A stretch of 64,000 bases of DNA from Dendrolimus kikuchii (Eukaryota > Arthropoda > Insecta > Lepidoptera > Lasiocampidae), in assembly GCA_019925095.2 (NCBI GenBank), contig CM034415.1:8217001-8281000 (forward strand), written 5' to 3'. Below the pieces are notes generated by a model, which was not told the DNA's origin, did no database searches, and was given only the letters and a program-made list of their open reading frames with translations. The translations under genes were made by a program, and so were the position numbers. This document shows positions 23,602 to 63,926 of this stretch, piece after piece (the stretch's first letter is position 1; every line of letters starts with the position of its first letter).

Positions 23602-23754
23602 ATGGAAGCGAAAACATCGGAATGGCGACCCGGGCCTACGGTGTGCCGTTGTTGCCTCACAGAAGGCTGTTACAAAGATATTTCTACTGAATACTTTTGG
23701 ATGGGAAAGAGAGAAGTCTATTCCGAAATGCTTTCAGAAACTTTCAGCGTGTCT
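23602..23754 (+). CDS. Plus-strand ZAD gene, exon 1: start codon and first half of the ZAD
   Basis: The ATG at 23602 (context GATAATGG) opens a 153-nt exon ending at donor GTGAGT, 51 codons in phase 0. The protein begins MEAKTSEWRPGPTVCRCCLT, then EYFWMGKREVYSEMLSETFS. CRCC is the first zinc-ligand pair of the ZAD, and the WMGKREVYSEML core matches the minus-strand paralogue at 19312-19482. A longer frame starting at a TTG at 23587 exists, but the ATG is the natural start. The intron phase and position within the ZAD equal those of the paralogue. The next exon is 4.6 kb away across a repeat-filled intron. The domain is expected to mediate dimerisation in the nucleus. Confidence 0.92.
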
Positions 23755-25500
23755 GTGAGTATTCATCATAATTATTGATGCCAGAGCGTCCATTTTCTTA
23801 AAGCTTTGGTTTACAACCCGACATTTTTCAGAAGTCACCGTGTCGATAACGCTAACTGCGCAATCGGATACGTTTTTATTTAGCTGGATACGAAAATCAA
23901 TGTAGCTGAACCCAAAAGTTCTTCTTTTTCCAAGACAGGTACCAAAAGAAATTATTGATTGATTTTATCCACAAAGATAATATTGAATATAAGAAGTAAT
24001 TAAAATGATAATTTAAAATTTGGAATTGATTATATTACTAATACTTTACATTCATCTCCTTGTATAAGTCTTGAAAGTATGTTCAAATTATTCCATTTTC
24101 AATACCTAAGGAAGACCCCTTATATGTTACTAATTATGGCGAAAGCCTAAAATGTTATAGGCGACTATGTCCACTGATGATGGTGAGTGGATTGTATGCT
24201 TCTTGGCTCAATATTATTTCAATTCAATTTCAATATTATTTCTTCTGGTATCTGACAGAGACAGTGGGTGGGGTATAGATATATACGGCACATTTATTTA
24301 TTATGAACAGATCTGAACTTTTTTAATATAGGTTAGAAGGCTAAGGCGGGTCCTTCACTTCGCTTCGCACTTTGCTTCGTGGTTATTTTTTTTTATAACC
24401 ACTCAATTTATATCTCAAGCAATAAATAAATGTGCCCTATAACTATATCGCACTGCAGATGGTTCTTGTTTCCGACTTAGCTAGCAGGCTGCAAATACAT
24501 GCTGTTGAATTTTGGTGTACCAACATAAGCGACTCGTGCAGTTTGTCTGCTATGCAACAGACAAGAAAGCTGTGCTTTCCATTTAATACAAATTTTTTAT
24601 TGTGAAGCAGCCAGCAAGCATATTTCCTATGAAATGTAAAATGGTTGTTGCTTATACTCATTTACAACACTAGAGCCACCATTCTGCTAATAGTATATCA
24701 TCAAAATCACCAGAAACTATTGTCTCAATCAAAGTTTTGCCTGATTTCAATATTCTGTAAATTCCAATGTACCTGTGGCTCCACTATAAATATTTAGGCT
24801 ATGCTTTGACTCAGAGTGACATGAGATTAAGGGTAATTTGAGTTTAGGGGCTATACAAAAGGCTTTTATATAGCCTTTAGACCTGTTATTTGGAGAGAAG
24901 TAGTGGAGGAAACAAGTTTTTAGGATCCACCAAGTTTTTAATGAATGGATAATAGGAAAAACAAAAATATGTTAGATAAACAAGGTTATGTCATTTTTGT
25001 TACAAGGTTATGTCACTTAATATATAAAATATATAAACACAAAAATTGTTTTTGAGTTTATTAAACCAGTTCGAATTATTTTGTAGATTTTTAAACACGA
25101 ATATAAATTATTTTGCTTATATATTGCGATGACGGTTACAAATTGGTTGTGACACTCGCTGACCATTGCTATGGTACACTCCCTTGGCTTGTGGGCTTTA
25201 GTTGAAAGTCACAATAAGTGGGTTAGGTTAGATATTAAACCGAAGAGCAGAACCGAAACAGACTGGTCAGTCAGAACAGACTGATCACAATATAATGAAA
25301 CAAACAAATGGAAAAATTAATATCTCAAAAATATTTGCTCAAAACATGCATTTAACTACATGTCTCCTAGACATGAGTGTTGCAACAGGGAGAAGTACTT
25401 CTCCCCCCTTCACCGTCTGCCCCTGCACTACTTAAAATTCAGTGACTACTAAACTAAAGTTTAACTAATATTTATTATAAGCGAAAACTCATGAAATAAA
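23755..25500. other. Intron 1 of the plus-strand gene, proximal part
   Basis: AT-rich, with short repeat pieces such as GGCACATTTATTTATTATGA near 24287 and AATAAATAAATGTGCCCTAT near 24423. No exon is recognised. Confidence 0.4.
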
Positions 25501-25504
25501 TGTT

Positions 25505-25815
25505 TTTATTTTTATTGCATGAGTTCAGCAGACAGGCAGACGGCCCACTGCATGGAAAGCGGTTACCATCACCTATGGACATTTGCAACACTAAAGGTGC
25601 TACAAATGCGCTGCTGCTCTCTTAAAGGAGACTGGAACCTGGTCAGTAATGCCGGAACACAACTCAAGGTTGTTATGACTTTAGACCAGGGGTGGTAGCC
25701 ATCCAGCCGGGCAAATACCCTACCACCTGGCTGTGGGTTGTTTTGTCGCCTCTCATGACAGGCCGCCGGCTGCAGGAAATTTTATTCTTTCTCCGTTCCT
25801 GCATGGATAAAATGT
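25505..25815 (+). repeat. Repeat A copy, plus orientation
   Basis: It runs from ATTGCATGAGTTCAGCAGAC to TCTCCGTTCCTGCATGGAT. A short deletion removes the GGCGACATA segment. Confidence 0.75.
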
Positions 25816-25950
25816 AAAGGTAGACCAAAAAAGAGATGGAGGGATTGTGTGAAGCTGATATGATGATTTGTGGTGTGACAGAAGATGTGTGTCAGAATAG
25901 AAGAGTGTGGAAAGAAAAGGCATATTATGCCGACTCCAAATAATTGGGAT
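25816..25950 (+). pseudogene. LINE C-terminal remnant
   Basis: It encodes CKGRPKKRWRDCVK and, after a frameshift, GVTEDVCQNRRVWKEKAYYA then DSK and a stop, a well-known LINE C-terminal pattern. Confidence 0.65.
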
Positions 25951-26329
25951 ATGCTGAAATAAAGAGATTGCAGATTTAGTGAAATTCTTATCACTCTCAC
26001 TTCTGCTTATAGTGGCCACACTGCCACTGATTGCAGGAAGCAAGAAAATTATATGAAAAAAAGTAAAAGTAAAGTGTAGAATTGGGATCCAGGAGCAAAG
26101 CCAAAGCTTTGCCAGGCATTTAGATGGGATGGGATGAGCAGGAGAAGGGCATTTCTCACTCATCATATGAACCAGTCAAAGCAAACCATTTCATGCCAGT
26201 ATTCTTGGACAGTGGTATCACACAGACTGAGCTAACTCTCCAATAAGTTCCTGTCATGTTCAAGGTTTGCTGTTGAGGCAAAACCATACCTAGTGTTCCA
26301 GATGCTAATCTATCTTACATATAAAAATG

Positions 26330-26580
26330 AATCATAGAAATGCATGTACACACATAACTTGAGAACAACTTTACTGATTTTGATGAAATTTCATGTGTGA
26401 GTGGGTCCCGGGATGGTTTAGACTCACAATTGGAACCGCTAGCTGGCGCTGAGATCGGGTTCTAGAACCCTACTAATCACCTAGACCGATTTTGGTGATT
26501 TTGTTTTTGTGTCATGAAAGTCTTAGGAATTCAGAAAATATGGCGGTACGAAGTTCGCCGGGTCAGCTAGTTTATAATAA
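26330..26580 (-). repeat. Repeat F copy, minus orientation
   Basis: It contains CTGGCGCTGAGATCGGGTTC and ends GCCGGGTCAGCTAGTTTATA, the inverse of copies such as 35043-35260. Confidence 0.6.
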
Positions 26581-26589
26581 AATAAATAA

Positions 26590-26845
26590 TACATACATAC
26601 ATAACTTCACGCCAGTTCCCTTGTGGGGTAGGCACGAAATGCAAAAGTGGATGGATGCAGAAGTCGTGGAAGGCCACGACACACTTTCCATGATCAAATT
26701 GATCGTGTACTAGCAGAAGGTGATGTTAGGAGCCTTAAGAACAGACGAGCGTGCATGACAAGAGTTATGAATGTCAAAGAAGCAAGTGAGGTGTGTAAGA
26801 ATAAGCCTAAATGGCGCTCTGTTGTTCGTGCCTACCCCGCAAAAT
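26590..26845. mobile_element. RTE LINE fragments joined head-on
   Basis: Positions 26590-26637 are the 3' end in minus orientation. At about 26638 the sequence switches to the plus orientation (GCAAAAGTGGATGGATGCAG onwards) and runs to RAYPAK without the usual tail. It is a fused, rearranged fragment. Confidence 0.75.
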
Positions 26846-26937
26846 AAATAATCTATACATATAATAAAATTGTAGAGGTCAAATTTCTGTACAATGAAAA
26901 AAAATACTAAAAACCGAGTCAGGGCGATGTAAGAAGT

Positions 26938-27080
26938 ACATACATAGATAACTTCACGCCAGTTCCCTTGCGGGGTAGGTACGAACAACAGAGCGCCATT
27001 CTTACACACCTCACTTGCTTCTTTGACATTCATAACTCTTGTCATGCACGCTCGTCTGTTCTTAAGGCTCCTGACATGTA
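26938..27080 (-). mobile_element. RTE-type LINE 3' fragment
   Basis: The reverse complement of the family, from the RELA-coding end to SLKNRRACMTRVMNVKEASE, with a small internal deletion. Confidence 0.75.
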
Positions 27081-27109
27081 AGAAGTGAAATAGAATTAAT
27101 TTAGATTTT

Positions 27110-27320
27110 TTCAATTTTTTTATTTCTCTGTTTGTCTGTCGGTTTGTACAGGCTAATCTCCGAAACGACTACACCGATTTAAATGAAATTTTGTATATGG
27201 TAGCTTATATCCCTGGTCAACATATAGGAATACTTTTGATCCCGAAAAATTAAAGAATTCCCGTGGGATAGTTAAAAAACCTTTCCACGCGGACGAAGTC
27301 GCGGGCAGAATCTAGTATGA
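27110..27320 (+). repeat. Lepidopteran repeat tail (GACGAAGTCGCGGGC type)
   Basis: It contains CTAATCTCCGAAACGACTAC and CACGCGGACGAAGTCGCGGG. An inverted copy is at 33175-33480. Confidence 0.65.
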
Positions 27321-27407
27321 AAATAAAATTAAAAACGCCTTTATTTCCCAATAATCTCTAGTCTCTAGATTAAATAAAAAAAATCTGATTTAAAGGTTCT
27401 ATTCACT

Positions 27408-27670
27408 GTACGCCTTTTTACAGCCAGGGACCAGCTTGTAAAGGGTCCGTCCGGGCTGGAGGTGAATGCACGTGCGAACCCACGGCCCGGACAAAGGACG
27501 CTCGAGGATCGGACCGCGGTCTTAGTGGGTATACCTAACTGCGGCGTGGCAATAGCACTCGCATATGAGGCGCTAGTGCCACCCCGATCTGGCGAATCCC
27601 ACACACGGGCCGCGATCTTTTCCCCTCGTGCGGCCTATGAATCCTCAAACGGATTTCCCCTGTACAAATA
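27408..27670. repeat. GC-rich block, probably a LINE fragment
   Basis: The block is GC-rich against AT-rich flanks and includes CCACGGCCCGGACAAAGGAC. Its composition resembles the R1-like element at 19.8-20.9 kb but no domain is readable. Confidence 0.4.
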
Positions 27671-27707
27671 AAAAATAATAGTTAAAAAAAAATCTAAAAA
27701 AATACGC

Positions 27708-27969
27708 TTTTATAGAAAATCCAACTAAAAAATAGAAAATAAATTTGAATTAAAAATAGTTTAAGAAAAAATGATTTTATTGTAAAAAAAAGCGTGGGGT
27801 GTTTTTCAGGATATTATCAAAATAACCCTTCTACTCATATCTGTTCATAAAATATTTATAACTATTGATACCATGCACCCCACGCTTTTTTTTACAATAA
27901 AATCATTTTTTCTTACACTATTTTTAATTCAAATTTATTTTCTATTTTTTAGTTGGATTTACTATAAAA
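27708..27969. repeat. Long near-perfect inverted repeat
   Basis: Arms of about 94 bp at 27708-27801 and 27876-27969 are reverse complements with about two mismatches, around a 74-bp spacer. The arms include GCGTGGGGTG next to the loop. The pair sits about 400 bp before ZAD exon 2 and would form a strong hairpin in the pre-mRNA. Confidence 0.9.
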
Positions 27970-27974
27970 GAAAA

Positions 27975-28250
27975 AGGTTTTTAAATACAAGCTTTTGAGA
28001 TCCTGCATATCATGTAGCAGCAGAGTGCTAGCCAAGACAAATGAAACGAGCCCAAACACGACGGGTCTATCTTGTTTAGTACAGGTGTTCCTATGTCCAC
28101 CTTCCGACTCCATCATCAGATCAGCTCCATTGTACCATATTATTGCATTGTCACGCGATATACACATACGTGCAAAATTTCAGCTCAATCGGAAACCGGG
28201 AAGTCGATCAAATTAACTTGAAAGATTCCTTACATACTAACATACGTATG
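27975..28250 (-). repeat. Repeat G, minus orientation
   Basis: It shares CTAGCCAAGACAAATGAAAC and AATCGGAAACCGGGAAGTCG with 3908-4210. Confidence 0.7.
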
Positions 28251-28385
28251 AAGCTAATAAAAGCGTATTAAAAGGCGGTTTCTTTCGTGTTGGGCCTCTA
28301 TTCAATGGTAGACAGTACATGAAAACACCTGTAGGATCCACCCGATCAGTTGTTGTTAGCCACTATATGAATTTATCTTCTGCAG

Positions 28386-28554
28386 ATATCCTATTCAAAG
28401 TCCGGTGGGCCGAACAGCCAAAGCCGGCTGATATGCGAGCAGTGTATATCGAGACTTCGCGACGCGGCCGACTTCAAGCGGCAAGTGGTGGAGTGCGAGA
28501 AGATGTTCATGCAGCACCTTGACCCTGGGACGTCTAGCGTCGTGGAATTTTCAG
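28386..28554 (+). CDS. Plus-strand ZAD gene, exon 2: second half of the ZAD
   Basis: The acceptor ATCTTCTGCAG precedes 28386 and the donor GTGAGG follows 28554. The 169-nt exon starts in phase 0 and ends in phase 1. It encodes ISYSKSGGPNSQSRLICEQC, then ISRLRDAADFKRQVVECEKM and FMQHLDPG. ICEQC is the second zinc-ligand pair, and the helix around RLRDAADFKRQVVECE is the ZAD dimer helix, matching RLRDATSFRLQVLKCE in the minus-strand paralogue. An overlapping open frame in another phase (from 28319) is spurious. Confidence 0.92.
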
Positions 28555-28689
28555 GTGAGGTGTCTGCAGGATTAGGTTAACTTACGCTGTTCGCAAACGG
28601 GACACTGACCGTAGGCTATCGGTACCACTCGTTCCGTCTTCGGTATCCTCCCGAAACAAGTTTAAAGAAATAAATATTTGAACAATGAC

Positions 28690-28970
28690 TTCTTTTTTTT
28701 TATTGCAGGAGATCAGCAGACAGGCAGACCTATGGACATTTGCAACACCAAAGGTGCTACAAATGCGCTGCTGCTCTCTTAAGGGAGACTGGAACCTGGT
28801 CACTAATGCCGGAACACAACTCAAGGTTGTTATGGCGACATACTTTAGACCAGGGGTGGTAGCCATCCAGTCGGGCAAATGCCCTAACACCTGGCTGTGG
28901 GTTGTTCTTACGACAGGCCGCCCGGCCGCAGGAAATTGTATTCTTTCTTCGTTCCTGCACGGATGAAATT
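28690..28970 (+). repeat. Repeat A copy with internal deletion
   Basis: The family sequence lacks the CGGCCCACTTGATGGAAAGC segment after GGCAGACC. Confidence 0.75.
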
Positions 28971-29019
28971 ATTGATGAGTTAATTTAGTTAAACAACCAA
29001 ATATTTAATTTTTCTTGTA

Positions 29020-29160
29020 ATGTCTCCTTGAGCACCGGGTTGCCTGGAAGAGATCGCTAGAAGCGATAAGGCCGCCCATTGTTCTAATGGAAATGTATTC
29101 ATAATAAATTATCTAGGTTTAAGGTATGGTGAACAATAAAGAGTTTTCATTCATTCATAT
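29020..29160 (+). mobile_element. LINE 3' tail
   Basis: GGGTTGCCTGGAAGAGATCG and AGCGATAAGGCCGCCCATTG are followed by GGTGAACAATAAAG and an ATTC-repeat tail. Confidence 0.6.
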
Positions 29161-29539
29161 ATGTTAAGAAAATTATCTCGGGTTGTTCGAGATTGTAAAA
29201 ATACTAGGAACAAAAATAATTTTGAAACTCCCACAGGCTCCATAAAGTTTACAATAGTTTCGTGGGGCAAAGTATATAATGCTCTTCAACAAAATCCCAG
29301 GAAACGTTCAACAGCTTTTAATAAAGAAATTTAAAAAAATTAGTAAAGCAAAGCTTGTGCGAGAAGGCTTATTACACGACGAAAATTTTTTTAAATGACC
29401 GCGCTGAATTGATATAATGCGATCGCCACCAAGCTTTTTCAGTAATCATTCATATAAATTTCTTTGTATTAGTATAAATTATAATTAAAAATAAAAGACG
29501 AAAAATAATAATAATTATTATTATATATATATAATAAGA

Positions 29540-30030
29540 GCTAAGACTCGAGCCCCGGGGTGGAAGTGATAAATGGCATCACGTCAGAAGTAGCTTCGGT
29601 GAACCTGCAGCCAACCTCTATACACCCCTTAGCCACTCACACCCATGTTGCCCCTGTCTTCTATGGCAACTTTTGGGGCCTATACAGGGAGTGGCGATTC
29701 AGCGTCTGCTCATTTTTCCTTGTTCCCCGAACATTGCGACGGGCAGGCGCTGTAGTCCCCTTACTCCCAGACACCTAGTACCACTAGCTGTTCACCCCAA
29801 TAGCCCGATACTTCTTGTTCACATTTCCCACAATATTCCTACATTGGCCGGGACTTGTCCTTGGGTGCATTATTATATGTTGTAGACAGGGATAATCGCC
29901 GGTCAGTGTCTCGCCACATTTACATTAAATTTGTTCAGGGGCCTCTACGTGTTAGCATTCCTATGGCCCCACGCAAGCCCTCCAAAAGTCCAGGCCATTT
30001 ATATGGCCCGTGATCTTCAAAGACATACAT
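29540..30030 (+). repeat. Unclassified ~490-bp repeat
   Basis: It has relatively balanced composition with landmarks such as AGAAGTAGCTTCGGTGAACC and GGACTTGTCCTTGGGTGCAT. It resembles a repeat I associate with Lepidoptera from general knowledge. Short frames inside have no recognisable domain. Confidence 0.45.
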
Positions 30031-30288
30031 AATAATAATTTTGATGTAAAGATATGTTGCTGGGGGGTTTGTTGCGCCGCTTGTTCTTCTTTAACAGCAA
30101 CTAGAATTTCTGTGGAAGAGGTAGACTCATGACTTTCAATAAGTAATTTGTAACATTATTTGAAATAAATACAGTCATAATAATTTTCCCCTATATTAAT
30201 TCCATATTCCATTCCTCGTGTCTAAACAAGCGAACCTCCTTGGAAGTGTTTTTGACCAATACATTTGTCTCACTTTAATACTACAGAG

Positions 30289-30517
30289 CAGGGGTCGCCA
30301 AATGGCTGACCGCGGGTTCACGTCCGGACCGCCGACCCATTTTGTGTAGACCGCGAAAAAAATTTCATTTTTCTCATTGATATATAAAAAATACCTTTGT
30401 TATTTCCGTAGTAACATTTGTTTAATGAATATTTGTTTCTATAAAATGTTGTGCGGACCGCGAGGGTCATTAAATTTCGTAAACCGGACCTCGAACAAAA
30501 ATAATTAGTGAACCCTG
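30289..30517. mobile_element. Non-autonomous hAT-type MITE
   Basis: A 229-bp element with ends CAGGGGTCGCC and, inverted, CAGGGTTCACT, typical of hAT termini. It is flanked by CTACAGAG (281-288 of the 30-kb block) and CTATAGAG (518-525), an 8-bp target duplication with one mismatch. Confidence 0.8.
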
Positions 30518-31185
30518 CTATAGAGAAAATGAGACGAAAGATGTAATTCTAATTTTCATGTGACGCCATTTGCAAAAGCGCGCCATTTGCATATTTGAAA
30601 CGTCAGATTGTTGCGGCTTTCCTATTGATATTTATGTTTGTTGCATTACCTATTGTACTGTTTTGTCGCAAATGTGTTGAAAAACGTATGACACACGTGC
30701 AGATGTTGGTTTTTACAAAAGAGTAGACGAAAGTCGATGGCTTACTATTGGTACTAGTATAATAAATAAGTATTTTGATTGTCTATCACGTTTTTCGAAT
30801 AAAGTTTGGCGTATAAAGGGTTACATAATATTTTTTTAAATTTTCGCGACTTGTATATATAATAAAACTACGTTTTAACGGTTTTAAGGTGATAACTATT
30901 AACAATTTACTTATAGATTATATTATATTATCTACATATACAACAATAGGTGATGTAGATATATTGAATTACATATAATCGAATATATGCAAGAAAATTT
31001 ACTTATTTGTATTGTATTCTACTCATAGTCCCGCAAGACTATAAGTAGAATACTGAGCCTAGATCGCCGTCTTCTATGGGTAAGGTGCCCAGAAGGCGGG
31101 CTACGTTTCTTCGCTGGATCGCCATACTGATCCGTTGACCGAGGTAAGCAACAGCCCTCTGATCACCTGAAGAGTCAATGAGTTA
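30518..31185. other. Intronic stretch, mostly unassigned
   Basis: There is a short E-like piece at 30855-30900 and a GCTGGATCGCCATACTGATC segment near 31117. No exon is seen. Confidence 0.4.
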
Positions 31186-31189
31186 AGGT

Positions 31190-31505: not shown

Positions 31506-31572
31506 TTTATTATATATAATGGGTTAACTCAAATCCCGGCAATACTTGGTAAAAATATTTTATTTTCAACAG

Positions 31573-31692
31573 TACCACAAGTGGAGTCTTCCGAGAAAGT
31601 TAAGTTGGAAAGAGTGAAGGTTGAGAAGGTGGCCAGCGATGATGATTTTGATGATGGCGGTTTCCCTGATGACGACGACGACGATGATGATC
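31573..31692 (+). CDS. Plus-strand ZAD gene, exon 3: acidic linker
   Basis: The acceptor TTTTCAACAG precedes 31573 and the donor GTGAGT follows 31692. The 120-nt exon runs phase 1 to phase 1. It encodes VPQVESSEKVKLERVKVEKV, then ASDDDFDDGGFPDDDDDDDD. An alternating charged strand followed by a poly-aspartate run mirrors exon M3 of the minus-strand paralogue. Because it is phase-symmetric it could be skipped without a frameshift. It is expected to be a disordered acidic linker. Function unknown. Confidence 0.9.
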
Positions 31693-32255: not shown

Positions 32256-32264
32256 AAATGAAAT

Positions 32265-32510: not shown

Positions 32511-32639
32511 TATGTATGAAACATGGATAACAAGCTTTTACGATAGGCTGAGAACATGTTTCGCCATTTACTGGCATACAAATTTTTCTTAAAAACTGAT
32601 ATGGTTTATAAACATCATATATTTTTATTTAATAGTATA

Positions 32640-33080
32640 TACATAACTTCACGCCAGTTCCCTTGCGGGGTAGGCACGAACAACAGATCATCATTCAGGC
32701 TTATTCTTACACACCTACTTGCTTCTTTGACATTCATAACTCTTGTCATGCACGCTCGTCTGTTCTTAAGGCTCCTGACATCACCTTCTGCTAGTACACG
32801 ATCAATTTGATCATGGAAGGTGTGTCGTGGCCTTCCACGACTTCTGCATCCATCCACTTTTGCATTGTATATCTGTTTAGTCATTCTTTCATCGTGCATT
32901 CTTTCCACATGCCCGAACCACCGGAGCGTCCCTTTCCTTACCTTCACCCCGACACTCTCTTTCTTACCTCAGTATTACGAACGCGGTCCGCGAGCGTCAC
33001 TTCGCAGATTTTGCGCAGTGCTCGCATCTCGACCGCGTTTACTCTACTTTCATGCTCTCTCTTCCATACCCAACTCTCGC
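32640..33080 (-). mobile_element. RTE-type LINE 3' fragment, minus orientation
   Basis: The minus strand encodes KVRKGTLRWFGHVERMHDER and KVDGCRSRGRPRHTFHDQID, with the tail lying toward 32640. It is inverted relative to 32265-32510, about 130 bp away, so an RNA hairpin with a 230-bp stem is possible. Confidence 0.8.
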
Positions 33081-35532: not shown

Positions 35533-35699
35533 TGGATGACCAGCCCCTCATGAAGCTGGCAAGCAAGATACCCAAGAAGGAGTCTTTGGACCTTCGAGAC
35601 CTATTGGACAACACAAAACTGGTGCTGAAGAGGAAGGCTCCTCCCACCTCCAAATCCAAGCCGGTCGTGCCAACCAAGAAACTAAAGTCCAAAAAGGAG
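35533..35699 (+). CDS. Plus-strand ZAD gene, exon 4: basic linker
   Basis: The acceptor TTGGTTTGCAG precedes 35533 and the donor GTAGGT follows 35699. The 167-nt exon enters in phase 1 and leaves in phase 0. It encodes LDDQPLMKLASKIPKKESLD, then LRDLLDNTKLVLKRKAPPTS and KSKPVVPTKKLKSKKE. It has a short leucine-rich helix followed by strongly basic lysine clusters, a probable nuclear localisation signal. It is only phase-compatible with exon 5 on its 3' side, so exons 4 and 5 behave as one phase-symmetric cassette. Confidence 0.88.
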
Positions 35700-37690: not shown

Positions 37691-37837
37691 CGTTCAAGCA
37701 AACAAACAAACTCTTCAGCTTTATATATTAGTAGTATAAGATGACATCCACAATCACATAGTGGCTAACTCAATTCTTATTGTAGTAATTGTTGTACATT
37801 ATTTCAGAGAATAAAAGGATTGATAGGGGTTGAAATG

Positions 37838-38790
37838 GAAGAGACGAAAAAAAGAGGAAAATGGAATCAACAAAATTTGCATACTGCCTTAGATAAGGTT
37901 TTGTCGAAAGAACTGAGTTTGAGGGAAGCTTCATTGCGCTATAACATTCCAAAGAGCACTCTACACGATAGAACACTAGCATTGAACAGTGGACAAGAAG
38001 TGACGTTGCAACCAAAGATTGGTAGATTCACCAATACCTTCTCACCTGCTTATGAACAAGTTTTAGTGGACCGCGTAAAAGATTTGTCCAATAGACATTT
38101 GCCGCTTATGAGAAAAGAGTTTCTCAAGTTAGCTTTTGACTTGGCTGAGTCTATGAAGATCCTTCATCGTTTTAATAAAGAGAAGGGTAGTGCTGGGAAG
38201 GATTTTTATTACGATTTCATGAAGAGACATCCTGAGATTTCTTTAAAAGTACCAGAGTCGACAAGCATGTTGTGAGATATATACTTAGGGTTTAAGAAAC
38301 CACATCTAGATCTCTTTTATGAAAATCTTAAAAGACTGAGGACACAGTATAGATTTTCACCCTCCAATATTTATAATTGCGATGAGACTGGATCAGCTGC
38401 TTGTAGAAACATCAAAAAGTTCTTATTCCGGAAGTTGTTCGACAAGTAGGAAATCTCACTTGTGCTGAGAGGTGCAAAAATATAACAATCTTGTTTTGTC
38501 TGAGTGCTAGTGGCCACTTCATACCGCCGTTTTTTGTCTTTCCTAGGCAAAGTATGAATGTTATGCTCATGATGAATGCTGCAGCTGAAAGCATAGGCGT
38601 GGCCCAACCAAAAGGCTTGGATGAACTGATTTTTTTCTGCATTAGTTGAAGTTCGTGAAACACTCACACTTGGCAAAAGGCAGCCGTGTGCTACTTTTAG
38701 ATTCTAGACACTGGTGGTTATCAATTTTTGCCGAGAAAAGAACATTTATTTGATAAGGTCACCGCCTCATACTAACATGCTCGAACCGCT
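37838..38790 (+). pseudogene. Pogo/Tigger-like transposase, N-terminal and catalytic part
   Basis: An open frame to 38275 encodes RGKWNQQNLHTALDKVLSKE and LSLREASLRYNIPKSTLHDR, a pipsqueak-type helix-turn-helix, and then a CENP-B-like DNA-binding region. After a TGA, fragments of the DDE domain follow: FSPSNIYNCDETG (first catalytic aspartate), then ITILFCLSASGHFIPPFFVF. Several stops and frameshifts make it non-functional. The frame from 37820 was checked as a possible host psq-domain gene, but the downstream DDE pieces show a transposon. Confidence 0.8.
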
Positions 38791-42450: not shown

Positions 42451-42523
42451 GTGAAACCGGCTCCGAGTAAAGCCAAGGCCGTGGCCAAGCCGGCCCCGAA
42501 ACCGGTCGAGAAGAAGAAGAAAG
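42451..42523 (+). CDS. Plus-strand ZAD gene, exon 5: lysine/proline linker
   Basis: The acceptor ATGTTTCTAG precedes 42451 and the donor GTAGGC follows 42523. The 73-nt exon enters in phase 0 and leaves in phase 1, the phase used by all four zinc-finger exons. It encodes VKPAPSKAKAVAKPAPKPVE and then KKKK, a low-complexity basic hinge. The GC-rich coding stretch stands out from its AT-rich flanks. It has no start codon and is too short for ordinary ORF detection. Its support comes from both splice sites, the phase match on both sides and the composition. Confidence 0.82.
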
Positions 42524-52010: not shown

Positions 52011-52873
52011 CCGAGTCTTATGATCCATCGCGCAGTAACGCCCAGACGATTATAAAGTGCACCACCGCCTACCCGTTCCGTGTGAACGATAAGTCGATAC
52101 TCTGCGTCTACTGCCAAGAGTTGTACGATGATCCGGATGTGTTCCGAAAGCACATGGAAGACGAGCATGCTGACTTTTCACTGCGAGTCGCGTTCCATCA
52201 TCTACCTAAAACGGAATTCATCAAGGCGGATCTAACCAACTTACGCTGCAGACTGTGTCCGCAGCATCACGACACATTGGAGATAATGGTGGAGCATTTG
52301 AAATTGCGTCACAATGCAAAAATCGATTCGAATGGAAAACTCGGCGTCATGCCGTATTATCTGCAGAAGAATGTATTCAACTGTGCAGTATGTGAGAAGA
52401 ACTGCCCGACCCTATTCCATCTGAACCGACATACAATAACGCATTTCCTAAGCTACGTGTGTCACGTATGTGGTAGCAGTTATGTGGCCACTACTGGCTT
52501 GTTACGTCATGTGCGCTCGAAGCATCAGGCGTATGAAGTCTCGTGCAAGAGATGCCAGAAAGTGTTCCCCACTATCGAAGCGAAAGAGAAACACAGAAGA
52601 ACGGAGAAGTCTTGCATGCCATACTGCTGTCCGAAGTGTATGGAGAGATTCAATGACTGGAAGCTTCGAAGGCGGCATATGGAGACGGAACACGGACAGA
52701 CGAAGAAGACCTATCGCTGTGTTGATTGTAATCTCGAATTCAGCAGTGAACATAGTTATTATGATCATTTCAAGTTGCAACATTCGGAGGATTGTGCGGT
52801 GTGCAAATTTTGTGGACTCAAGTTTGCTTCGACCTATCGTCTGAAACGGCACATTGCTAAGCATAACTTATAA
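52011..52873 (+). CDS. Plus-strand ZAD gene, terminal exon A: eight zinc fingers
   Basis: The acceptor TTTGTTTTTAG precedes 52011, entry is phase 1 and TAA is at 52871-52873. It encodes 287 residues. A conserved block NAQTIIKCTTAYPFR comes first, then fingers at exon residues 32-53, 80-101, 125-145, 151-172, 179-202, 207-228, 237-258 and 265-285. The fifth is C2HC (KEKHRRTEKSC). Fingers 1-3 are separated by long linkers; 5-8 are close. It has two fewer fingers than the next two exons. Joined to exons 1-5 the protein is 514 aa. The open frame continues into the intron upstream, but that part (51881-52010) is not needed. It is expected to bind specific DNA in the nucleus. Confidence 0.9.
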
Positions 52874-55407: not shown

Positions 55408-56459
55408 AGTTCGATATGACGGTCGAAGCAAGATGCAACGCTAAGGTTCTGTTGAGATACGCATCTGTCTATCCATTCAGGATACCCTCCAACGATATGG
55501 TGTGTGTTTTCTGCGGCGAGACACATTCCGATCCACAAAACTATAGGAAACATATGCAGACGGAACATAACCAATTTAAAGTGAACACGGCGTTCTTCCA
55601 TACTGCAAGCAATTTTGAATACCTTAAAGTTGATTGTACTGAGATTAAATGTAAAATATGCAAAGAACCTTTCGAAGATTTGCAATCTGTAGCGGAACAT
55701 TTGGTACGGAAGCACGGGAAAGCCATCAATCTAGATGCTGAATTGGGCATGCAGGTATTTAAATTGGGCGAGGAGAAATGGGTTTGTGCCTTTTGCAAAA
55801 TTAAAGTTCCAAGTCTTAGAGATCTTAGTAGGCATACTAGTAAACATTACCACAAGTTCACCTGCGAATTATGTGGCAGATCTTATGTCAATAAGGAGAG
55901 TCTGACCAAGCATATAGCGACTGGTCACGTCGAGGGGAAGGTGTGCCTGAAATGCAAGAAGATGTTTCCAAGTTGCAAAGCCAGAAGGGAGCATATGGAA
56001 GAGACACGGCGTTGTTGGCCATACATTTGCACATTTTGCGGGGAAAGATTTTTATCCAAGAAGTTAAAGACGGAGCATTTGAGCACAGTACACGGAGAGC
56101 AGAAGAAGTCCACGCACACGTGTCCAGAATGTGGACAGGTTTTCGACAAATGGAGGGCATATAGAGTCCACTTTGTTATTACACACACAGAACACAATTA
56201 CGAATGCCCGTTCTGCGGTATCAAATTCGACACCTTACGTAGTTACGAGTCGCATAAAGTAGTGCATACAAAAGAAAAGACATTCGCGTGTACATTTTGC
56301 CCGAAGGCATTTGGAAGGAAAAAGAACTTGATCCAACATATGTGGATACACAGTGAACATAAGAGATTTGAATGCAAAATGTGCAATAAACAGTTCAATC
56401 AAAGAGTGAGCTGGAAGACGCATATGAAGTCTTATCATCCAGAACTTGTTGATTTCTGA
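55408..56459 (+). CDS. Plus-strand ZAD gene, terminal exon B: ten zinc fingers
   Basis: The acceptor CTCTTTGTTCTAG precedes 55408, entry is phase 1 and TGA is at 56457-56459. It encodes 350 residues starting EFDMTVEARCNAKVLLRYAS and VYPFR. Fingers are at exon residues 33-54, 82-103, 127-147, 153-174, 180-203 (C2HC, REHMEETRRC), 208-229, 239-260, 267-287, 295-315 and 323-344. The last three have near-canonical linkers (HTKEKTFAC, HSEHKRFEC). An internal ATG at 55416 could in principle start a ZAD-less protein. Joined to exons 1-5 the protein is 577 aa. Its own AATAAA lies about 85 nt after the stop. Confidence 0.93.
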
Positions 56460-56565
56460 AACGCGATTTGTTTACCATGATTCTACATCTGTCTGCATAT
56501 TTACACATAGTCTATTCATAAGTTCTATCACAAACACTTGATTAAATAAAATGTAGGACTTTTAA
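56460..56565 (+). other. 3' UTR of terminal exon B
   Basis: A short AT-rich untranslated region ending just after AATAAA at 56545-56550. Confidence 0.6.
56545..56550 (+). promoter_or_regulatory. Polyadenylation signal for terminal exon B
   Basis: AATAAA lies 86 nt after the stop, the canonical hexamer at a plausible distance. Confidence 0.65.
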
Positions 56566-56699
56566 TTACTTACAATATTTTATGTAAAGCAATAGGCGGC
56601 CTAACTCATATTGGTTGTTAAAAATATATATGACAATAAACATCGCTAAATATAATTCAAAACGTACTAAAATTGTTCGATATGCACTATTTGATTTTG

Positions 56700-57425
56700 A
56701 ATAATAGGCTTTCAACCTCCGAGGCCAGTCGTCAACCTCAGCGTGCACAATGATCATGCCATTGTTTTAATTAGGGATACTTTGATAGACTCCAAATTCT
56801 GGTAAGGTTTAGCGCAGGCTCTTCTCCAAATGTTGTTAAGTCTAACCGGTTTAACTCTGGGCTCGAAGAGGGCCATTCGTAGTGCCCGATGAAGTCGATT
56901 CCATATTTGATTGTTGCCTGCAGAGCTGGCGTTGATTCATATTGGAATGCCTTGTTTTATTATGTCCGTTGACGAATATTTGTTGAATAAAAGGTCCACA
57001 ACGTTTGTTTTTGAACGGTATTTTGATACACAACAGTGCTATTTTTCGGATCTTTTACACGGAATTTTTCACGCTAAGCCCGAAATGAGGACAATGCCTA
57101 CGCTAGATTCTCGGGATATGCCTGCTCGCTTCTTCACTGTTGGGCATACACTGTATCATTTTATTTTTTGCAAATTTCTTCGATGTTAAAAATCTTTTCG
57201 TCTGAAGAAGTATTCGTTGTCATATACCCAGCGTGCTGCCTTAACAAGGCCCGGGATCTCTCGAGTCTTATTTTTTACCGTTGACCGGGGTTCTGCTCAC
57301 TTCCAATTGTATGGCTAAATTTTTTTTCTTGTGGACGGGATTTTCATTGAATTCGCGCCCGCATAATTTTGTCGATCGCTAGTGAGGTAACCGTGCGAGG
57401 TCTACCGCTTCTTTTGCGACCTTCA
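56700..57425 (-). pseudogene. Mariner-type (DD37D-like) transposase remnant
   Basis: Reading the minus strand from 57425, pieces of one transposase appear in order: SGRPRTVTS-like, SSDEKIFNIEE, EWPSSSPELN and DDWPRRLKAY. They match the mariner family whose C-terminus reads WPRRLKAC. Several stops and frameshifts disable it. The pieces are in the right order and spacing, so it is one decayed element. It lies between terminal exons B and C. Confidence 0.7.
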
Positions 57426-57429
57426 AAAG

Positions 57430-58322
57430 TGGAAATAATATATATAATATCTTTTTCAATTAAAAAAAAAAACTGATTTTATAACGTTATTTTTCTTAAA
57501 AATTGATTGTGATATACAAAAATAATCACGACGATTTCAAAGTGGTTGCGCGTTTGCCAAAATGCCTACAGAGCCCTCAAATGGTGTTAGTAAATTGAGG
57601 CTAGTGGTAGAGAGAAACAAAAAATAGATAAAAATGTCTTTTTCCTCTGACACAAAATCGATTCACACTATTCGATTTGTAAATACGAGCACGTAAAATG
57701 GAGGAGATGGTGACCGCGACGTCTGAATCGTTTTGGTTTTCGCGTCACTAAAAGCTACTTGTGACATAATATGTGGAATAGTAGATAGAAAAAATTGGCA
57801 GGCTCGCTTTTCAAACAAATCATAGAGCTTAGTCTATCTAAATTACATGATTGTGGTTCACATATATTCTAGGCAATTTTAGAAATTTAAATTAAATAAG
57901 GATGTGACAGAACTTATGATCCGACTAAGTATTATAATGCTGACTAAAATATTTAAGAAAAATCAATTATACAACTTACAAATGCATTATTGTTAAAAAT
58001 TATAGATTTAATCAAAGTTATTTAATTATCAATAATTATAGAAATGTTATATATATATGATTTGCGTTCATTATACGAATATGTTATGTTTCTTTTCTTT
58101 GATATAAACAGGTTAAGTTTATTTACGTTTACAACATGTTTTTTCTAACTCTATTTAAAGTTAAAAGGTTTTATTATATTTAGATATAAAATTGGAATAA
58201 TTGGGGCATCGCTTCACGTATTGCCGTTTCCAAATACAGGACAGAACTCATTTCAGCAGTATCATAAAAGAAAGAAGACCGAAGATCAATTGAATGACCA
58301 AGGACATTTCTTTCTGTTCTAG
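57430..58322. other. Spacer between terminal exons B and C
   Basis: AT-rich sequence without recognised repeats; it should contain the branch region for the exon C acceptor. Confidence 0.4.
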
Positions 58323-59431
58323 AAATGAGAAACGATCTGTATAGCATCGCGAGACGGAACGCCGAGTTAATTCTGAAACATGCAACGGTCCACCCGTTCA
58401 AGTTGCCAGAGGAGAAAATGGTATGCGTGTACTGCTGCGAAGGGTATGAGGACCCAACAGTGTTTAGAAAACACATGAATGACGAACATCCCACGTTCAC
58501 TATACGAATGGCGTTCATACATTGCAGCGAAGGTTATGTGAAAGCTGATTGCTCAGAAATCAGATGTAGATTGTGCTCGGCACATTGCGAGAGCTTAGAA
58601 GACACGGCGAGACATTTGTACTACGAACATAGTATACCGATTAATTTAAATGTTGAAGTTGGGATGCAACCGTTCAAACTGGTCAATGATAAGCTCCACT
58701 GCGCAATTTGTGATAACAAATCGTTGGGCATGAGGCAACTGAGCAGGCATACTCAGTCCCATTTTCTAAAGTTCACCTGCGAATCCTGCGGGAAGTCCTA
58801 TTCGACAATGACATCCTTAAAAGCGCACATGCGTTTCTCGCACATAAAAGACGAGAGGATCTGCAGGAAGTGCAAAACGACCTTCAGCAATTTAGATGCG
58901 TTGAGGAAACACATTGCAGAGTCTAGACGATGTTGGGCGTATCTATGCAACGTCTGCGGAGACAGATTCATGACTTGGACGTTAAAACAGTCGCACATGG
59001 TTGAAGTGCACGGAACTGAGAAGAAGAACTACGTATGCCCTGAATGCAGTGAAGTATTCTTCACTCGACAAAAATTTAGTGTACATTTCAAGATTAAACA
59101 TACAGACGATAACTATACGTGCTCTTGTTGTGGACTTAAGTTTGACACCAAGAAGAATTTGGAAGAGCATAGAGTAAAACATACTAAAGAGAGACTTTTT
59201 CCTTGTACCGTGTGCTCCAAATCGTTTCCAAGAAAGAAGAATTTGACTCAGCATATGTGGATCCATAGTGAATATAAGAGGTTTGAGTGTAAATTGTGCA
59301 ATAAGCAGTTCAACCAACGTGTCAGTTGGAGGACACATATGAAATCGTATCATCCTGGCTTAGTCGATGTCAGTTCTGGTGTGAATAATAACGTTAAACT
59401 CCGATATCCTTCTGATTTGAAAACTATTTAA
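58323..59431 (+). CDS. Plus-strand ZAD gene, terminal exon C: ten zinc fingers
   Basis: The acceptor TTTCTGTTCTAG precedes 58323, entry is phase 1 and TAA is at 59429-59431. It encodes 369 residues starting EMRNDLYSIARRNAELILKH and ATVHPFK, then ten fingers in the same order and spacing as exon B, including the C2HC fifth finger (RKHIAESRRC). The last two fingers are nearly identical in protein to those of exon B (QHMWIHSE, NKQFNQRVSW, THMKSYHP), although the DNA differs at many third positions. A 25-residue tail (VSSGVNNNVKLRYPSDLKTI) is unique. Joined to exons 1-5 the protein is 596 aa. The acceptor is followed directly by an in-frame ATG, so a ZAD-less start is possible but unproven. Confidence 0.93.
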
Positions 59432-59561
59432 GTTTGAACGTGCTGTTTCAGTTCTTCTCCAATATCTGTACACGTCGTTCAGTTTTAGCAGTTTCTTGTT
59501 TTATGTCATGTTGATACACTTTGGTAGGTTGTTTCATTGGTACAATTGGTTGTGGCTCATT

Positions 59562-59567
59562 AATAAA
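59562..59567 (+). promoter_or_regulatory. Polyadenylation signal for terminal exon C
   Basis: AATAAA lies about 130 nt after the stop of exon C. Confidence 0.55.
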
Positions 59568-60414
59568 CCAAAAAGAGAGCAGCAAGTTCAATATTATAGC
59601 GAAATAACCATATTCCGCAGGATCTAAGCCCGTACTACGATTTATCAATACCGGACCCGGCTATGAAAAGATGAATCCGTTTCTGAAAATACGGCTTACG
59701 GGAGCAAAATTTTCTTGTATAAGGCCGGGCTTGTCAGATTTGTATTTTGTATGGAAACGGTCTAACTCGTTCTAGTCGATAGCGTTCAAAGTCGATAATT
59801 GCTGTTGATTATAGCGCTCAAGTTACTATAATCATTAGAAAAAATAGTCCCGGATTTATATAGTTTGCACGCTGTGCTTGTCGCTTATGATGTTCGGTCA
59901 ACAAGCCAGAGAAGAATTACAGTACGTACTGGGCGATGATCATTTTCAAATGGCTTTTATACATTCTCGCGGGAAACGAGAATGTGGAGCGTCTCTTACA
60001 CTCGTGACCACTCTCACCCTCTTTTAGATCCGGGCCTGGCAAACAGTCTTATACCACAGATGAACAAATCACAACACATGTATAGTTCTTGCAATTCACG
60101 AAGTCGAGTGGGCTTTACTAGTTGCAAACACGTATCTGTGTGCTCGGGTAGAGCGGGCATGATTTAACGGCCTCGTTCCGTCAGATACATGCACGGTCTT
60201 AATGTGCATGCACACACTCAGCCAGGAGTAAAACTCGCTCACTTTCGGAGATCGCAAGAACTGTACCTGAAAACATGCCTCTTTATATTGAAATTATTCA
60301 TTGTTATAATCTATTTTAATTAATTTAATACGTTAATTGTATTTTTTATTATAAATAAACGTATATTTAATTTAAAACACACAGTTGTTTGTTTATCAAA
60401 TAAAATATTCCGAG
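59568..60414. other. Spacer after terminal exon C
   Basis: Unassigned, moderately AT-rich. The short frame at 59982-60167 has no recognisable domain. Confidence 0.4.
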
Positions 60415-60655
60415 CTATAAGATTACCATTACAAGGCCTGTCGCGTGCCAAGAATATTTTGGTGCGGTTTTGTCATGCGAACTCTATATCCTATGGAACT
60501 ATAGAAACGCGTGCACCACAATATTAAGCATCCAATTCCAATTCTGTAACTTATCACAGACTTGATGCGCAGTAAGCGTAAGCGAGAAAGTGACTCTAAG
60601 TTTGATCCTTAACGATCTTCTTCTATATTGGGTTTATGACATACAAAACTGGTGT
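60415..60655 (+). repeat. Left copy of a ~230-bp direct repeat flanking a LINE
   Basis: From ATAAGATTACCATTACAAGG to GACATACAAAACTGG. It recurs at 61345-61570 with scattered substitutions and a 14-nt indel. Confidence 0.75.
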
Positions 60656-61344
60656 TTGAAAGAGAAGAAACCAGAACGAATGCAAGGGTAATGGTCGATG
60701 ATGTTATGCTGGAGCAAGTGAATGACTGTATATCTTGGATGTGCTTTTAGCAGGGATGGAAGGTACACCGCTGATATAGAAAGAAGAGTGCATTTGGGGA
60801 ATAGTGTGAATGGAGCGTTAGGTAAACTTCTAGGCGCTAAGAACCTCAGCCAGAAGGTCCAGCTTGCCATACACAACGCGGTGCTGGTACCTACGCTCAC
60901 GTATGGAAGCGAGAGTTGGGTATGAAAGAGAGAGCATGAAAGTAGAGTAAACGCGGTTGAGATGCGAGCACTGCGCAATATCTGCTGAGTGACGCTCGTG
61001 GACCGTGTTCGTAATACCGAAGTAAGAAAGAGAGTGTCGGGGTGAAGGTAAGGAAAGGAATGCTCCGGTGGTTCGGGCATGTGGAAAGAATGCATAATGA
61101 AAGAATGACTAAACAGATATACAATGCAAAAGTGGATGGATGCAGAAGTCGTGGAAGGCCACGACACACCTTCCATGATCAAATTGATCGTGTACTAGCA
61201 GAAGGTAATGTCAGAAGCCTTAAGAACAGACGAGCGTGCATGACAAGAGTTATGAATGTCAAAGAAGCAAGTGAGGTGTGTAAGAATAAGCCTGAATGGC
61301 GCTTTGTTGTTCGTGCCTACCCCGCAAGAGAACTGGCGTGACGT
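60656..61344 (+). mobile_element. RTE-type LINE 3' fragment, longest copy
   Basis: It reaches further 5' than the other copies, with DIERRVHLGNSVNGALGKLL, LAIHNAVLVPTLTYGSESWV, then KVRKGMLRWFGHVERMHNER and the KVDGCRSRGRPRHTFHDQID to RAYPARELA end with a TGA. Several stops and frameshifts interrupt it. Confidence 0.85.
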
Positions 61345-61570
61345 TATGTATGTATAAGATTACCATTCCAAGGCCTGTCGCGTGCCAAGAATATTTTGGT
61401 GCGGTTTTGTCCTGCGAACTCTATATCGTATGGAACTATAGAAACGCGTGCACCACAATTTCAATTCTGTAACTTATCACAGACTTGTTGCGCGGTAAGC
61501 GTAAGCGAGAAAGCGACTCTAGGTTTGATCCTTAACGATGTTCTATATTGGATTTATTACATACAAAAGT
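61345..61570 (+). repeat. Right copy of the ~230-bp direct repeat
   Basis: It starts ATAAGATTACCATTCCAAGG directly after the TATG tail of the LINE. Confidence 0.75.
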
Positions 61571-62809
61571 GCTCATATGAAAAGACGGTTACAAAATTAT
61601 CTTGGATTTCAAATATCACGACAGAAATTAGACTAAATAATATACTAAGGTAGGTGTCATTACTCATAAAAAAATCTACGATGCTGAAACGTCTTGCAAC
61701 TTAATAAAAATCTCAGTAGATTTGATTGTCAAATAGCTTGCTAACGACTTTATTTAAAACTAGCGGTGCTCGCTGGCAGTGGTCCTTCCCCGAAAAAATA
61801 AAAATCTAGAACCCGATTCCAGCGCCACCTACCGGGTCTAATTGTTAATCTAAAAATATAAAATTTCATCAAAATCCTAGAACCCGATTCTAGCGACTCA
61901 AGTATTTTATTTAGACTGACATTTTTAAATTCGTAATATCTTTTCTATGGAATGTCCGATTTGAATAATTCAGAGTAATTAATCTACAGGCCCCTATTGA
62001 AACAGTCTTGAATACGAAATGATTTATTTGGGTAAGGATCAATACAAAGGTATGGATGACATGGTCTGATTTTACCATACCCATAACACAAGCGTAACTT
62101 TGCTTAATTTGGGGATATACAATTTGTGTGTTTGCCGATTATTATTATTATAATCCCTATTTTTTTTTTCTAGTACTAAATATAGCCTATATTACTCAGG
62201 GAGAATGTAGCATTCTAATGGTGAAAGAATTTTTGAAATCGGTCCAGTAGTTTTTGAGTTTATTCATTGTAAACATACAAAAACACAAATCATTCTTTAT
62301 AATATTAGTATAGATTAATTACTAGTTGAACGTGTCATCAATGGCACGCCATTAGCATGAAATGATGATGATGATTACGTTCGATTATAAAACGATAATA
62401 TTTCCTACAAAAAAATCTATAGTATTTTTGGGTCATAACTGGTATAGCAATTTTATCCATCATTGACTGTATTTTATGTTTTTCACTGCCTAGGGACCAA
62501 TATCATATAACTTAATATTACCAATATACCTATGTACTTAAGTACTATTAGGCGATGACTTGTGTATCATCTATGTGAGTATTGCCCATACTTTATTGAA
62601 ATTGAAGACTCAAATAGAATCGAAAACAGGTAATGAAAGTACAAAATGCTAACCGAACGTCACGAAGCTCTATAGTAACGGATATAACAGATGTAACATG
62701 GGATTCCTGAAGATGAAGATTCTATAAACCTCACCAATTTTAGAAACGCCAGTAAACGTCAGAGACGCCTGCAGTTGAAAGACCAAGTCATTTTTTCTTT
62801 TTGTTTTAG
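61571..62809. other. Spacer before terminal exon D
   Basis: Contains a repeat F copy (61760-61880, GCGCCACCTACCGGGTCTAA) and a truncated SINE tail at 62070-62150. No exon is seen. Confidence 0.5.
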
Positions 62810-63926
62810 AAGTCGGGTTCGGAGTCATCAAAATGAGGAATGCGAAAATTATAGTCAAGTACACGACGGTATATCCGTTTAGGCTACCGGATAATTCTAT
62901 GCGTTGCGTATTCTGTGAGTTGAGCTTCGCGAACCCAGTAAAATTTAGGGAACACTTTACAATCGAACATAAAACATTTAAGTTAGACGATGCATTTCAT
63001 CATGTCAATGCCGATTATGACTAGAAAGTAGATTGCACTGAGCTGAGTTGTCGTATATGTACTAAAAGTTTCAGATGTTAGAAGATATGGCTGTACATTT
63101 GAAGACACATCTTCAGTGTCAAAAATTAGACCTCGATTTCAGTTTAGGTTTGCAGCCATACATACTGCATAATTACTATGGGTTGAGTTGTGCGTTGTGT
63201 GATCTAAAAGTAGCGACCATTAGAACATTATCAAGGCACATGCAGACGCATTACGCGAGGTTTACATGTGCCGTTTGTGGCAAAGCTTATGCGTCAACAG
63301 CGTCGTTGCATTACCACAAGCTTAAAGTACATGATGGAGATCAGAAATATCTTTGTAGGAAATGTAAGAATTATTTCAGCTCTTTGGAAGCGAAAAGGAA
63401 ACATATACAAGAATCGCCAAGATGCCGGCCGTATCTTTGCACTGCATGCGGATCGAGATTCACATCGCCCAGTCAAAGAAAACATCATTACGCAGACGTC
63501 CATGGAAGGAAGATCGTTTACGATTGTCCAGAATGTGATGAAAATTTTACCGATGTTAAGCAGAAACGTAGACATTGTGCAAAGAGTCATAGAGACAAAG
63601 CGTTATACTGTTTGCATTGTGATGAAAGTTTTGCTGATAAAACAAGCCTCGATGAACATACAAGCGACCATGTGGTGAATGTTTACGAATGCGTGGTGTG
63701 TTCTAAACCGTTCTTGAAGAAAACTCAATTAAATCGCCACATGTGGATACATAGTAAGAAGAAGAGGTTCCAATGCACGCTTTGTGGGAAACAGTTTATA
63801 TGTAAGGCTAATTGGAAGGTGCATATGCAGAACCATCATCCAGGTGTGATGTGTACCGATGATTTAGTAAGGGTGTGCAAGAATAAAATTAGTCTGACTG
63901 ACATAATAGACATTGAAAATTATTAG
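62810..63926 (+). pseudogene. Plus-strand ZAD gene, terminal exon D: decayed zinc-finger exon
   Basis: The acceptor TTTTGTTTTAG precedes 62810 and entry is phase 1. It encodes EVGFGVIKMRNAKIIVKYTT and VYPFR, finger 1 (CVFC), then a TAG at 63022-63024 where the other exons have leucine or valine before K(V/A)DC. The frame continues through finger 2 (CRICTKSF), where one base is missing near 63068-63072. From 63075 the frame is open again (LEDMAVHL), with eight more fingers including the C2HC one (RKHIQESPRC), to TAG at 63924-63926. Added to exons 1-5 the length is 1799 nt, not divisible by three, which confirms the shift. The rest is well conserved, so the decay is recent, or the base errors are sequencing artefacts. 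A start at the ATG at 63075 could still give an eight-finger protein. Confidence 0.85.

Follow-up and report, generated by a model that had tools for sequence, protein, structure and literature searches.

A ZAD zinc-finger gene of Dendrolimus kikuchii with a predicted bank of alternative terminal exons, and its counterparts in Lepidoptera

The DNA analysed here is a stretch of 64,000 nucleotides (nt) from the moth Dendrolimus kikuchii (GenBank assembly GCA_019925095.2, contig CM034415.1, positions 8,217,001 to 8,281,000 of the forward strand), referred to below as the window. Its + strand carries a gene in which five common exons (E1-E5), encoding a ZAD and linker segments, are followed by four zinc-finger exons (A-D) in tandem, and a second ZAD gene, referred to as the sister gene, lies on the - strand (Table 1). 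The model of the + strand gene was re-derived from the DNA using GT/AG splice ends. An earlier interpretation made from the letters alone (the sequence-only reading) held that the common exons end in phase 1; the five re-derived exons, which sum to 682 nt, agree with this.

Table 1. Positions in the window of the exons, intronic blocks and sister-gene segments discussed in the text
Feature	Positions	Strand	Description
Common exon E1	23602..23754	+	153 nt; ATG and first half of ZAD (MEAKTSEWRPGPTVCRCC...SVS); ends phase 0; donor GTGAGT
Common exon E2	28386..28554	+	169 nt; second half of ZAD (ISYSKSGG...RLICEQC...); ends phase 1
Common exon E3	31573..31692	+	120 nt; acidic linker; phase 1 to phase 1
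Common exon E4	35533..35699	+	167 nt; DDQPLMKLASKIPKKESLD...; ends phase 0
Common exon E5	42451..42523	+	73 nt; lysine-rich linker ending KKKK-G; ends phase 1; shared donor
Terminal exon A	52011..52873	+	7 C2H2 fingers by pattern; own stop; phase-1 acceptor; common exons + A = 1545 nt
Terminal exon B	55408..56459	+	9 fingers by pattern; own stop; phase-1 acceptor; common exons + B = 1734 nt
Terminal exon C	58323..59431	+	9 fingers by pattern; own stop; phase-1 acceptor; common exons + C = 1791 nt
Terminal exon D	62810..63926	+	Phase-1 acceptor and N-terminal block; broken; 63066-63926 open finger array
Pre-acceptor intronic block of C	58290..58322	+	TTGAATGACCAAGG, then pyrimidine tract and AG; block itself 58290-58303
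Pre-acceptor intronic block of D	62775..62809	+	TTGAAAGACCAAGT, then pyrimidine tract and AG; block itself 62775-62788
Sister ZAD gene exon 1	19312..19482	-	First half of ZAD; ends phase 0; start codon inferred
Sister ZAD gene exon 2	16570..16711	-	Second half of ZAD; starts I-S; ends phase 1
Sister gene zinc-finger stretch	1..264	-	Runs off left edge; exon start not fixed; best E 3e-17
Two distinct sister-type genes per species			P0196/P0218, P0207/P0224, P0217/P0227; three species

The common part of the + strand gene is matched by the Pfam family zf-AD (PF07776) over residues 14-94, with a score of 38 bits against a cut-off of 28. This was the sole Pfam family detected in the common part at E values up to 0.01, and no BTB was found there. 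Comparison of the ZAD with solved structures (phmmer) gave only one match, at chance level. The exons E1, E2 and E4 are covered by 180, 180 and 162 tblastn matches of related proteins, respectively (low-complexity filter on), and are therefore more than chance open frames. E3 falls inside a run of 204 amino acids (aa) that is identical to a deposited D. kikuchii protein, P0018, while E5 was accepted on the basis of its phase, its splice sites and the resemblance of its lysine-rich junction to that of other lepidopteran species. The identity to P0018 also places the window in D. kikuchii, a lasiocampid, or a very close relative of it.

According to the sequence-only reading, each of the four tandem zinc-finger exons has a phase-1 acceptor, the same N-terminal block and its own stop. 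All three features are present in A, B and C; D retains the acceptor and the block, and its reading frame is interrupted, as described below. The total lengths that had been given for the common exons joined to A, B and C were reproduced exactly (Table 1), all of them being multiples of three, and the frames are open up to each stop. Pfam C2H2 models match A, B and C as well as the open part of D, for which no match above 45% was present among the best 22 hits. The predicted products thus have the composition of ZAD zinc-finger (ZAD-ZNF) proteins, with a zf-AD above the gathering score and a C-terminal C2H2 array (of seven, nine and nine fingers in A, B and C).

To place this arrangement among other species, proteins were searched with the predicted isoform C, which gave 414 proteins at E values up to 0.001 among 4852 candidates (best 120 listed). 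A search scored on residues 1-100 alone matched 355 of 360 candidates (best 120 listed). The matches listed comprise 192 distinct proteins, 183 with names from 44 species, which we take to be butterflies and moths, and nine others. Among the listed named proteins, 166, belonging to 30 species, have an N-terminus that is identical over 195 residues or more to that of another protein of the same species, from which they then diverge; in one of two counts the common run is 205 to 226 residues long. The first residue past the common lysine run is of the GNN codon type (G, E, D, A or V) in 159 of 163 proteins, which is what would be predicted if one phase-1 donor (G) served every terminal exon. The four exceptions are Plutella proteins with one extra common residue (R) before D or G, and three Pectinophora proteins without the lysine run also continue with E or G. 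These predicted proteins, with their same phase-1 junction, lend support to the proposal in the sequence-only reading that one ZAD module is combined with interchangeable zinc-finger arrays, in the manner of lola and mod(mdg4).

The highest isoform number is 33 in Plutella, 25 in Ostrinia and Bicyclus, 24 in Pectinophora, and 22 in Manduca and Amyelois; these numbers are predictions, and some of the variants counted may differ elsewhere than in the terminal exon. The Achroia series runs without gaps from X1 to X16, its terminal parts being at most 63% identical. In the eight species tested, the median identity between terminal parts of one species is 30-32%, except in Amyelois (38.5%), and the highest value lies between 49 and 79%. 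One predicted protein of Leptosia nina consists of an A-like array followed by a B-like array, the same order as in the window. The database names of the proteins of this locus are unrelated to one another (gastrula zinc finger and PRDM5-like are examples). Three Bombyx mori proteins of the locus (P0057, P0060 and P0172) go under the name 'ferritin iso...' in one source, a label that points to a gene model either merged or misnamed.

The relationships of the arrays were assessed with a tree of 184 terminal parts (from 181 named proteins together with A, B and C; two chained models were dropped) and six sister-gene sequences. Clades were counted when their support reached 0.9 and they contained a minimum of three species, each represented by a single sequence; the outgroup monophyly output of the tree is a rooting artefact and was not used. 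There are 26 such clades, which take in 126 of the 184 terminal parts, and 12 of them span at least five species. Exon A belongs to an eight-member clade with seven other species (support 0.997), exon B to a ten-member clade with nine other species (support 0.981) and exon C to an eight-member clade with seven other species (support 0.934), where it stands beside Bombyx and Manduca. The placement of each of the three in a supported cross-species clade suggests that these exons are old and distinct. Exon A is 71-75% identical to its seven clade members and 63% identical to the chained Leptosia model, with the next sequences below 55%. Reciprocal-hit clustering was abandoned in favour of the tree, as it lumped 144 sequences into a single component, probably an effect of incomplete isoform lists. 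No relatives of exon C were detected in viral or prokaryote contigs in one scan of each.

The base-contact positions of a C2H2 finger are -1, 2, 3 and 6. These were compared among A, B, C and 26 orthologues chosen by hand among the best hits. Between the paralogous A, B and C the identity is 0.15-0.41 at the contact positions versus 0.30-0.51 at other finger positions, and between orthologues it is 0.55-0.64 at the contact positions versus 0.57-0.69 elsewhere in the fingers. The contacts are kept exactly in some fingers (ATGR in 8 of 8 A sequences; RKNQ in 8 of 8 B and 13 C sequences) and vary in others. Judged from these alignments, the contact pattern fits arrays that have different targets and is not a test of selection.

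Taken together, the gene model and the protein comparison make it very probable, in our judgement, that alternative finger exons are spliced, in cis or in trans, to one ZAD. Several observations weigh against this interpretation. The isoforms in other species are database predictions ('isoform X' denotes automated models). The junction count leaves out 17 of the 183 named proteins, of which 13 are the sole listed protein of their species; of the remaining four, Galleria X3 shares 107 aa, the Papilio machaon 'u' protein shares 150 aa and two Loxostege entries share 1 aa. The low-complexity exons E3 and E5 had zero tblastn matches with the filter on. The frame of exon D is interrupted by a TAG at 63022-63024 and breaks near 63070, so that the final stop at 63926 is not reached in one frame in this assembly; D is either a decayed exon (a young pseudo-exon) or the site of an assembly error. 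The AATAAA motifs reported earlier within 150 nt of two exons are indeed present after B (about 86 nt past the stop, overlapping an ATTAAA at 82, with a later AATAAA at 176) and C (131 nt past the stop), but with 0.26 expected per 150 nt by chance these poly(A) signals barely exceed the background, and they were rejected as proof of separate ends because the motif is too frequent. In the tree, 58 of the 184 terminal parts fall in no clade of the kind counted, and the contact residues of orthologues are not better conserved than other finger positions.

The last such observation concerns P0018, a protein of 950 aa that is named a hypothetical protein and is probably an automated model. It is 100% identical to E1-E4 over the 204 aa and then continues into two other finger arrays, omitting E5 and chaining the two arrays, so that it conflicts with the E5 junction. 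Both arrays are only about 30% like A-D and are absent from the window. As P0018 carries them, the D. kikuchii genome holds more finger arrays than the window does, and the bank probably continues past the right edge, by an expected 12-25 terminal exons to judge from the isoform numbers of other species.

In one variant of the interpretation, each terminal exon would be transcribed as a unit of its own and linked to the ZAD exons by trans-splicing, as happens at mod(mdg4). Passages of one paper report trans-splicing of mod(mdg4) in Lepidoptera (PMC4667647), and excerpts of another describe mod(mdg4) 3' exons with independent promoters (PMC12692577); the start of the terminal exons in the window, 9.5-20 kb past the last common exon, would also suit separate units. 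However, A-D all lie on the same strand as the donor and in order, and choice in cis is therefore favoured. The source labels also give the set of each species as numbered isoforms, suggesting one gene model. On this balance we consider joining in trans unlikely.

Far less probably, A-D are an array of independent zinc-finger genes, or remnants of such genes, that annotation has fused by mistake with a single ZAD gene. Such an array would account for the in-frame ATG near the exon start in B, C and D, for the open frame of exon A, which reaches 151 nt upstream and contains ATGs, and for the prediction of some finger exons alone (P0062, P0082 and P0118). It is contradicted by the junction, since a GNN-type residue follows the lysine run in the great majority of proteins and the four exceptions and the three proteins without the run agree on inspection. 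The open frames of B and C, moreover, begin only 28 and 25 nt before the exon. Tandem complete ZAD-ZNF genes would have ZAD exons for each finger exon, but when the 192 proteins were compared with the window by tblastn (E values up to 0.01), the ZAD of E1 and E2 was the only one on the + strand, and the stretches separating the terminal exons yielded none.

If one ZAD is indeed joined to alternative exons, the sequences before the acceptors may bear on how an exon is chosen. The acceptors of A-D have long pyrimidine tracts and a GTT(T/C)TAG-like end, unlike those of E2-E5. Upstream of C and D, 14 of 16 nt are common at about 33 nt before the acceptor, a value reached in 0 of 200 shuffles; A and B have 12 of 16 nt in common (reached in 3 of 200 shuffles), and the other four pairs are at chance. 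The 14-nt blocks of the C and D introns (Table 1) differ from each other at two positions. A pre-acceptor block as a general element was rejected, as only C-D and A-B of the six pairs beat the shuffles. The exact form TTGAAWGACCAAG occurs in the window only before C and D, while matches to the block with mismatches are at chance in the whole window (6 versus 6.8 expected and 4 versus 4.2 expected). Similarly, the pattern TTTSTTYTAG is found only at the acceptors of B and D, yet at a chance level (2 versus 1.35 expected). Of four proteins from other species whose readings run through this intron, P0083 has a compatible block (13 of 14 positions; 1 of 500 in the null), and in P0081, P0086 and P0107 the block is not significant by the same test, so that three of the four readings fail. 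P0081 and P0086 have an identical ten-residue string just before the exon; as they are 77% identical in the exon, this common string may partly reflect relatedness. A role of the block in exon choice is a lead only. Exon choice by long-range RNA pairing of the docking-selector type, as in Dscam, would be compatible with the C-D block, but the restriction of the signal to two of six pairs and the failure to find, in the intron after E5, a docking partner better than shuffles (at least one of eight shuffled selectors was as strong or stronger for each of A-D, and eight of eight for B and C) make it the least credible of the alternatives, with hardly any probability left to it.

The tblastn comparison of the 192 proteins with the window gave, outside the locus, only three clusters, all on the - strand (19461-19231, 16744-16550 and 285-1). 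These constitute the sister ZAD gene, which is arranged head-to-head with the gene carrying the bank of terminal exons, the start codons being about 4.1 kb apart. The ZAD is split at the same position in both genes, with an exon 2 that starts with I-S and with phases 0 and 1, and the fingers are related. A search with the sister ZAD gave 40 proteins from 46 candidates, 36 of them 521-598 aa in length and four shorter; three of the 40 names carry isoform X1 or X2. The sister ZAD exons are matched by all 40 of these proteins and the left-edge finger stretch by 37. In contrast to the neighbouring gene, no bank of terminal ends was seen among the listed proteins of the sister gene.

The 34 named sister-type proteins come from 29 species, 24 with one protein and five with two. 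The pairs in Bicyclus, Epargyreus and Plodia represent distinct genes with different N-termini that are about 65% alike in the ZAD, and those in Danaus and Spodoptera frugiperda are overlapping models of one protein. There are accordingly at least two sister-type genes, which gives the lepidopteran family one member or more beyond those in the window. The left-edge stretch has 44-59% identity to 26 of the 40 sister-type proteins and 37-42% to 11, with the other three aligning poorly or not at all; by this measure, the sister gene of the window is closer to one of the two sister types. A sister-type gene and the bank are on the same contig in 15 of the 17 species compared, with equal reported size taken as the same contig. 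On that contig ten of the 15 have the window-like type, and in four (Amyelois, Pectinophora, Plodia and Plutella) it is the other type that is found there, with Leptosia not clearly assignable. The window-like gene of Plodia is on a different contig. Of the two non-matching species, Loxostege has locus tags that are four apart (ABMA28_013053 and _013057) and Leptidea differs. The co-location across species suggests that the ZAD genes have long been neighbours in Lepidoptera. One of the two neighbours seems to have enlarged its terminal exon into a bank, and the adjacent sister gene, for which none was seen, is a natural comparison for the origin of such banks.

Some other open frames of the window resemble transposable-element fragments, namely 11197-12300 (-), 19782-20726 (+) and 37769-38275 (+), which we take to be of mariner-like transposase, reverse transcriptase and psq-type DNA-binding kinds. 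A further three, 9883-10269 (+), 32615-32968 (-) and 61015-61341 (+), all contain the peptide VRKG(T/M)LRWFGHVERMH, presumably a retroelement tail.

The closest parallels to the bank gene are found among BTB genes. In Drosophila, lola has common 5' exons for a dimerisation domain (BTB) and many alternative 3' zinc-finger exons. The moth gene likewise has one common module and alternative zinc-finger ends; it differs in having a ZAD instead of a BTB and 7-9 fingers per intact exon, and trans-splicing, which passages of PMC4667647 note for lola, is here only a rival explanation. For mod(mdg4), the same passages give a shared N-terminus with at least 31 alternative 3' ends, some of them on the opposite strand, and at least 40 isoforms in Danaus (PMC4667647). 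One shared N-terminus with many 3' ends is thus common to mod(mdg4) and the moth gene, whereas mod(mdg4) combines a BTB with FLYWCH, opposite-strand exons and independent promoters, and A-D are all on the donor strand. The Broad-Complex of Drosophila also differs, with a BTB and few ends. Several terminal exons of the moth gene match the phase of the last common donor, as in the lola and mod(mdg4) type. The gene would work like these two but stands outside the BTB group, as its common exons encode a ZAD and gave no match to BTB.

Among ZAD genes, cucoid of culicine mosquitoes is described, in the portions of the source consulted, as a ZAD-C2H2 gene with three isoforms that have alternative 3' ends (PMC9810180). 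Its shorter isoforms drop fingers of one array, according to the same portions, and no bank of alternative arrays appears there (PMC9810180). The main text of a survey of silkworm C2H2 proteins does not contain ZAD or zf-AD, and calls the number of proteins unclear for lack of data (PMC6613534). The sequence-only reading knew of no detailed description of a ZAD locus of the present kind. In the open-access papers searched (titles and abstract openings, with most subscription papers and all bioRxiv preprints outside the scope) we likewise met with no account of one ZAD followed by interchangeable zinc-finger exons, but the architecture is visible in databases under the unrelated names mentioned above.

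In the mechanism that we propose, the window would hold the 5' part of one lepidopteran gene for a family of ZAD zinc-finger transcription factors. The E5 donor would be spliced to one terminal acceptor per transcript, and the stop and poly(A) site of the chosen exon would end the mRNA. The resulting isoforms would have the same ZAD and different DNA targets, and by analogy with known ZADs the common domain would let them dimerise, perhaps with one another. Further terminal exons probably follow to the right, and terminal-exon duplication in one member of the head-to-head pair of ZAD genes is the probable origin of the bank.

A more far-reaching version, which we regard as possible and rather doubtful as a whole, is a Lepidoptera-wide combinatorial locus in which one ZAD serves perhaps 16-33 old, separately conserved arrays. 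Its isoforms would heterodimerise through the identical ZAD to give hundreds of paired DNA specificities, the intronic block before the acceptors would help the donor to choose among them, and the bank would have arisen by terminal-exon duplication in the head-to-head pair, independently of lola and mod(mdg4).

If RNA confirms the joining of the exons, the design of one dimerisation module with many DNA-binding ends would prove to exist with a ZAD in addition to a BTB, and to have been kept across Lepidoptera. It would have stayed hidden because the isoforms bear different, borrowed database names. A single locus could then add some 16-33 transcription factors per species. With its ZAD constant, the gene could serve to test how heterodimer partners are chosen, and it would be a new case of one donor choosing among many terminal exons.

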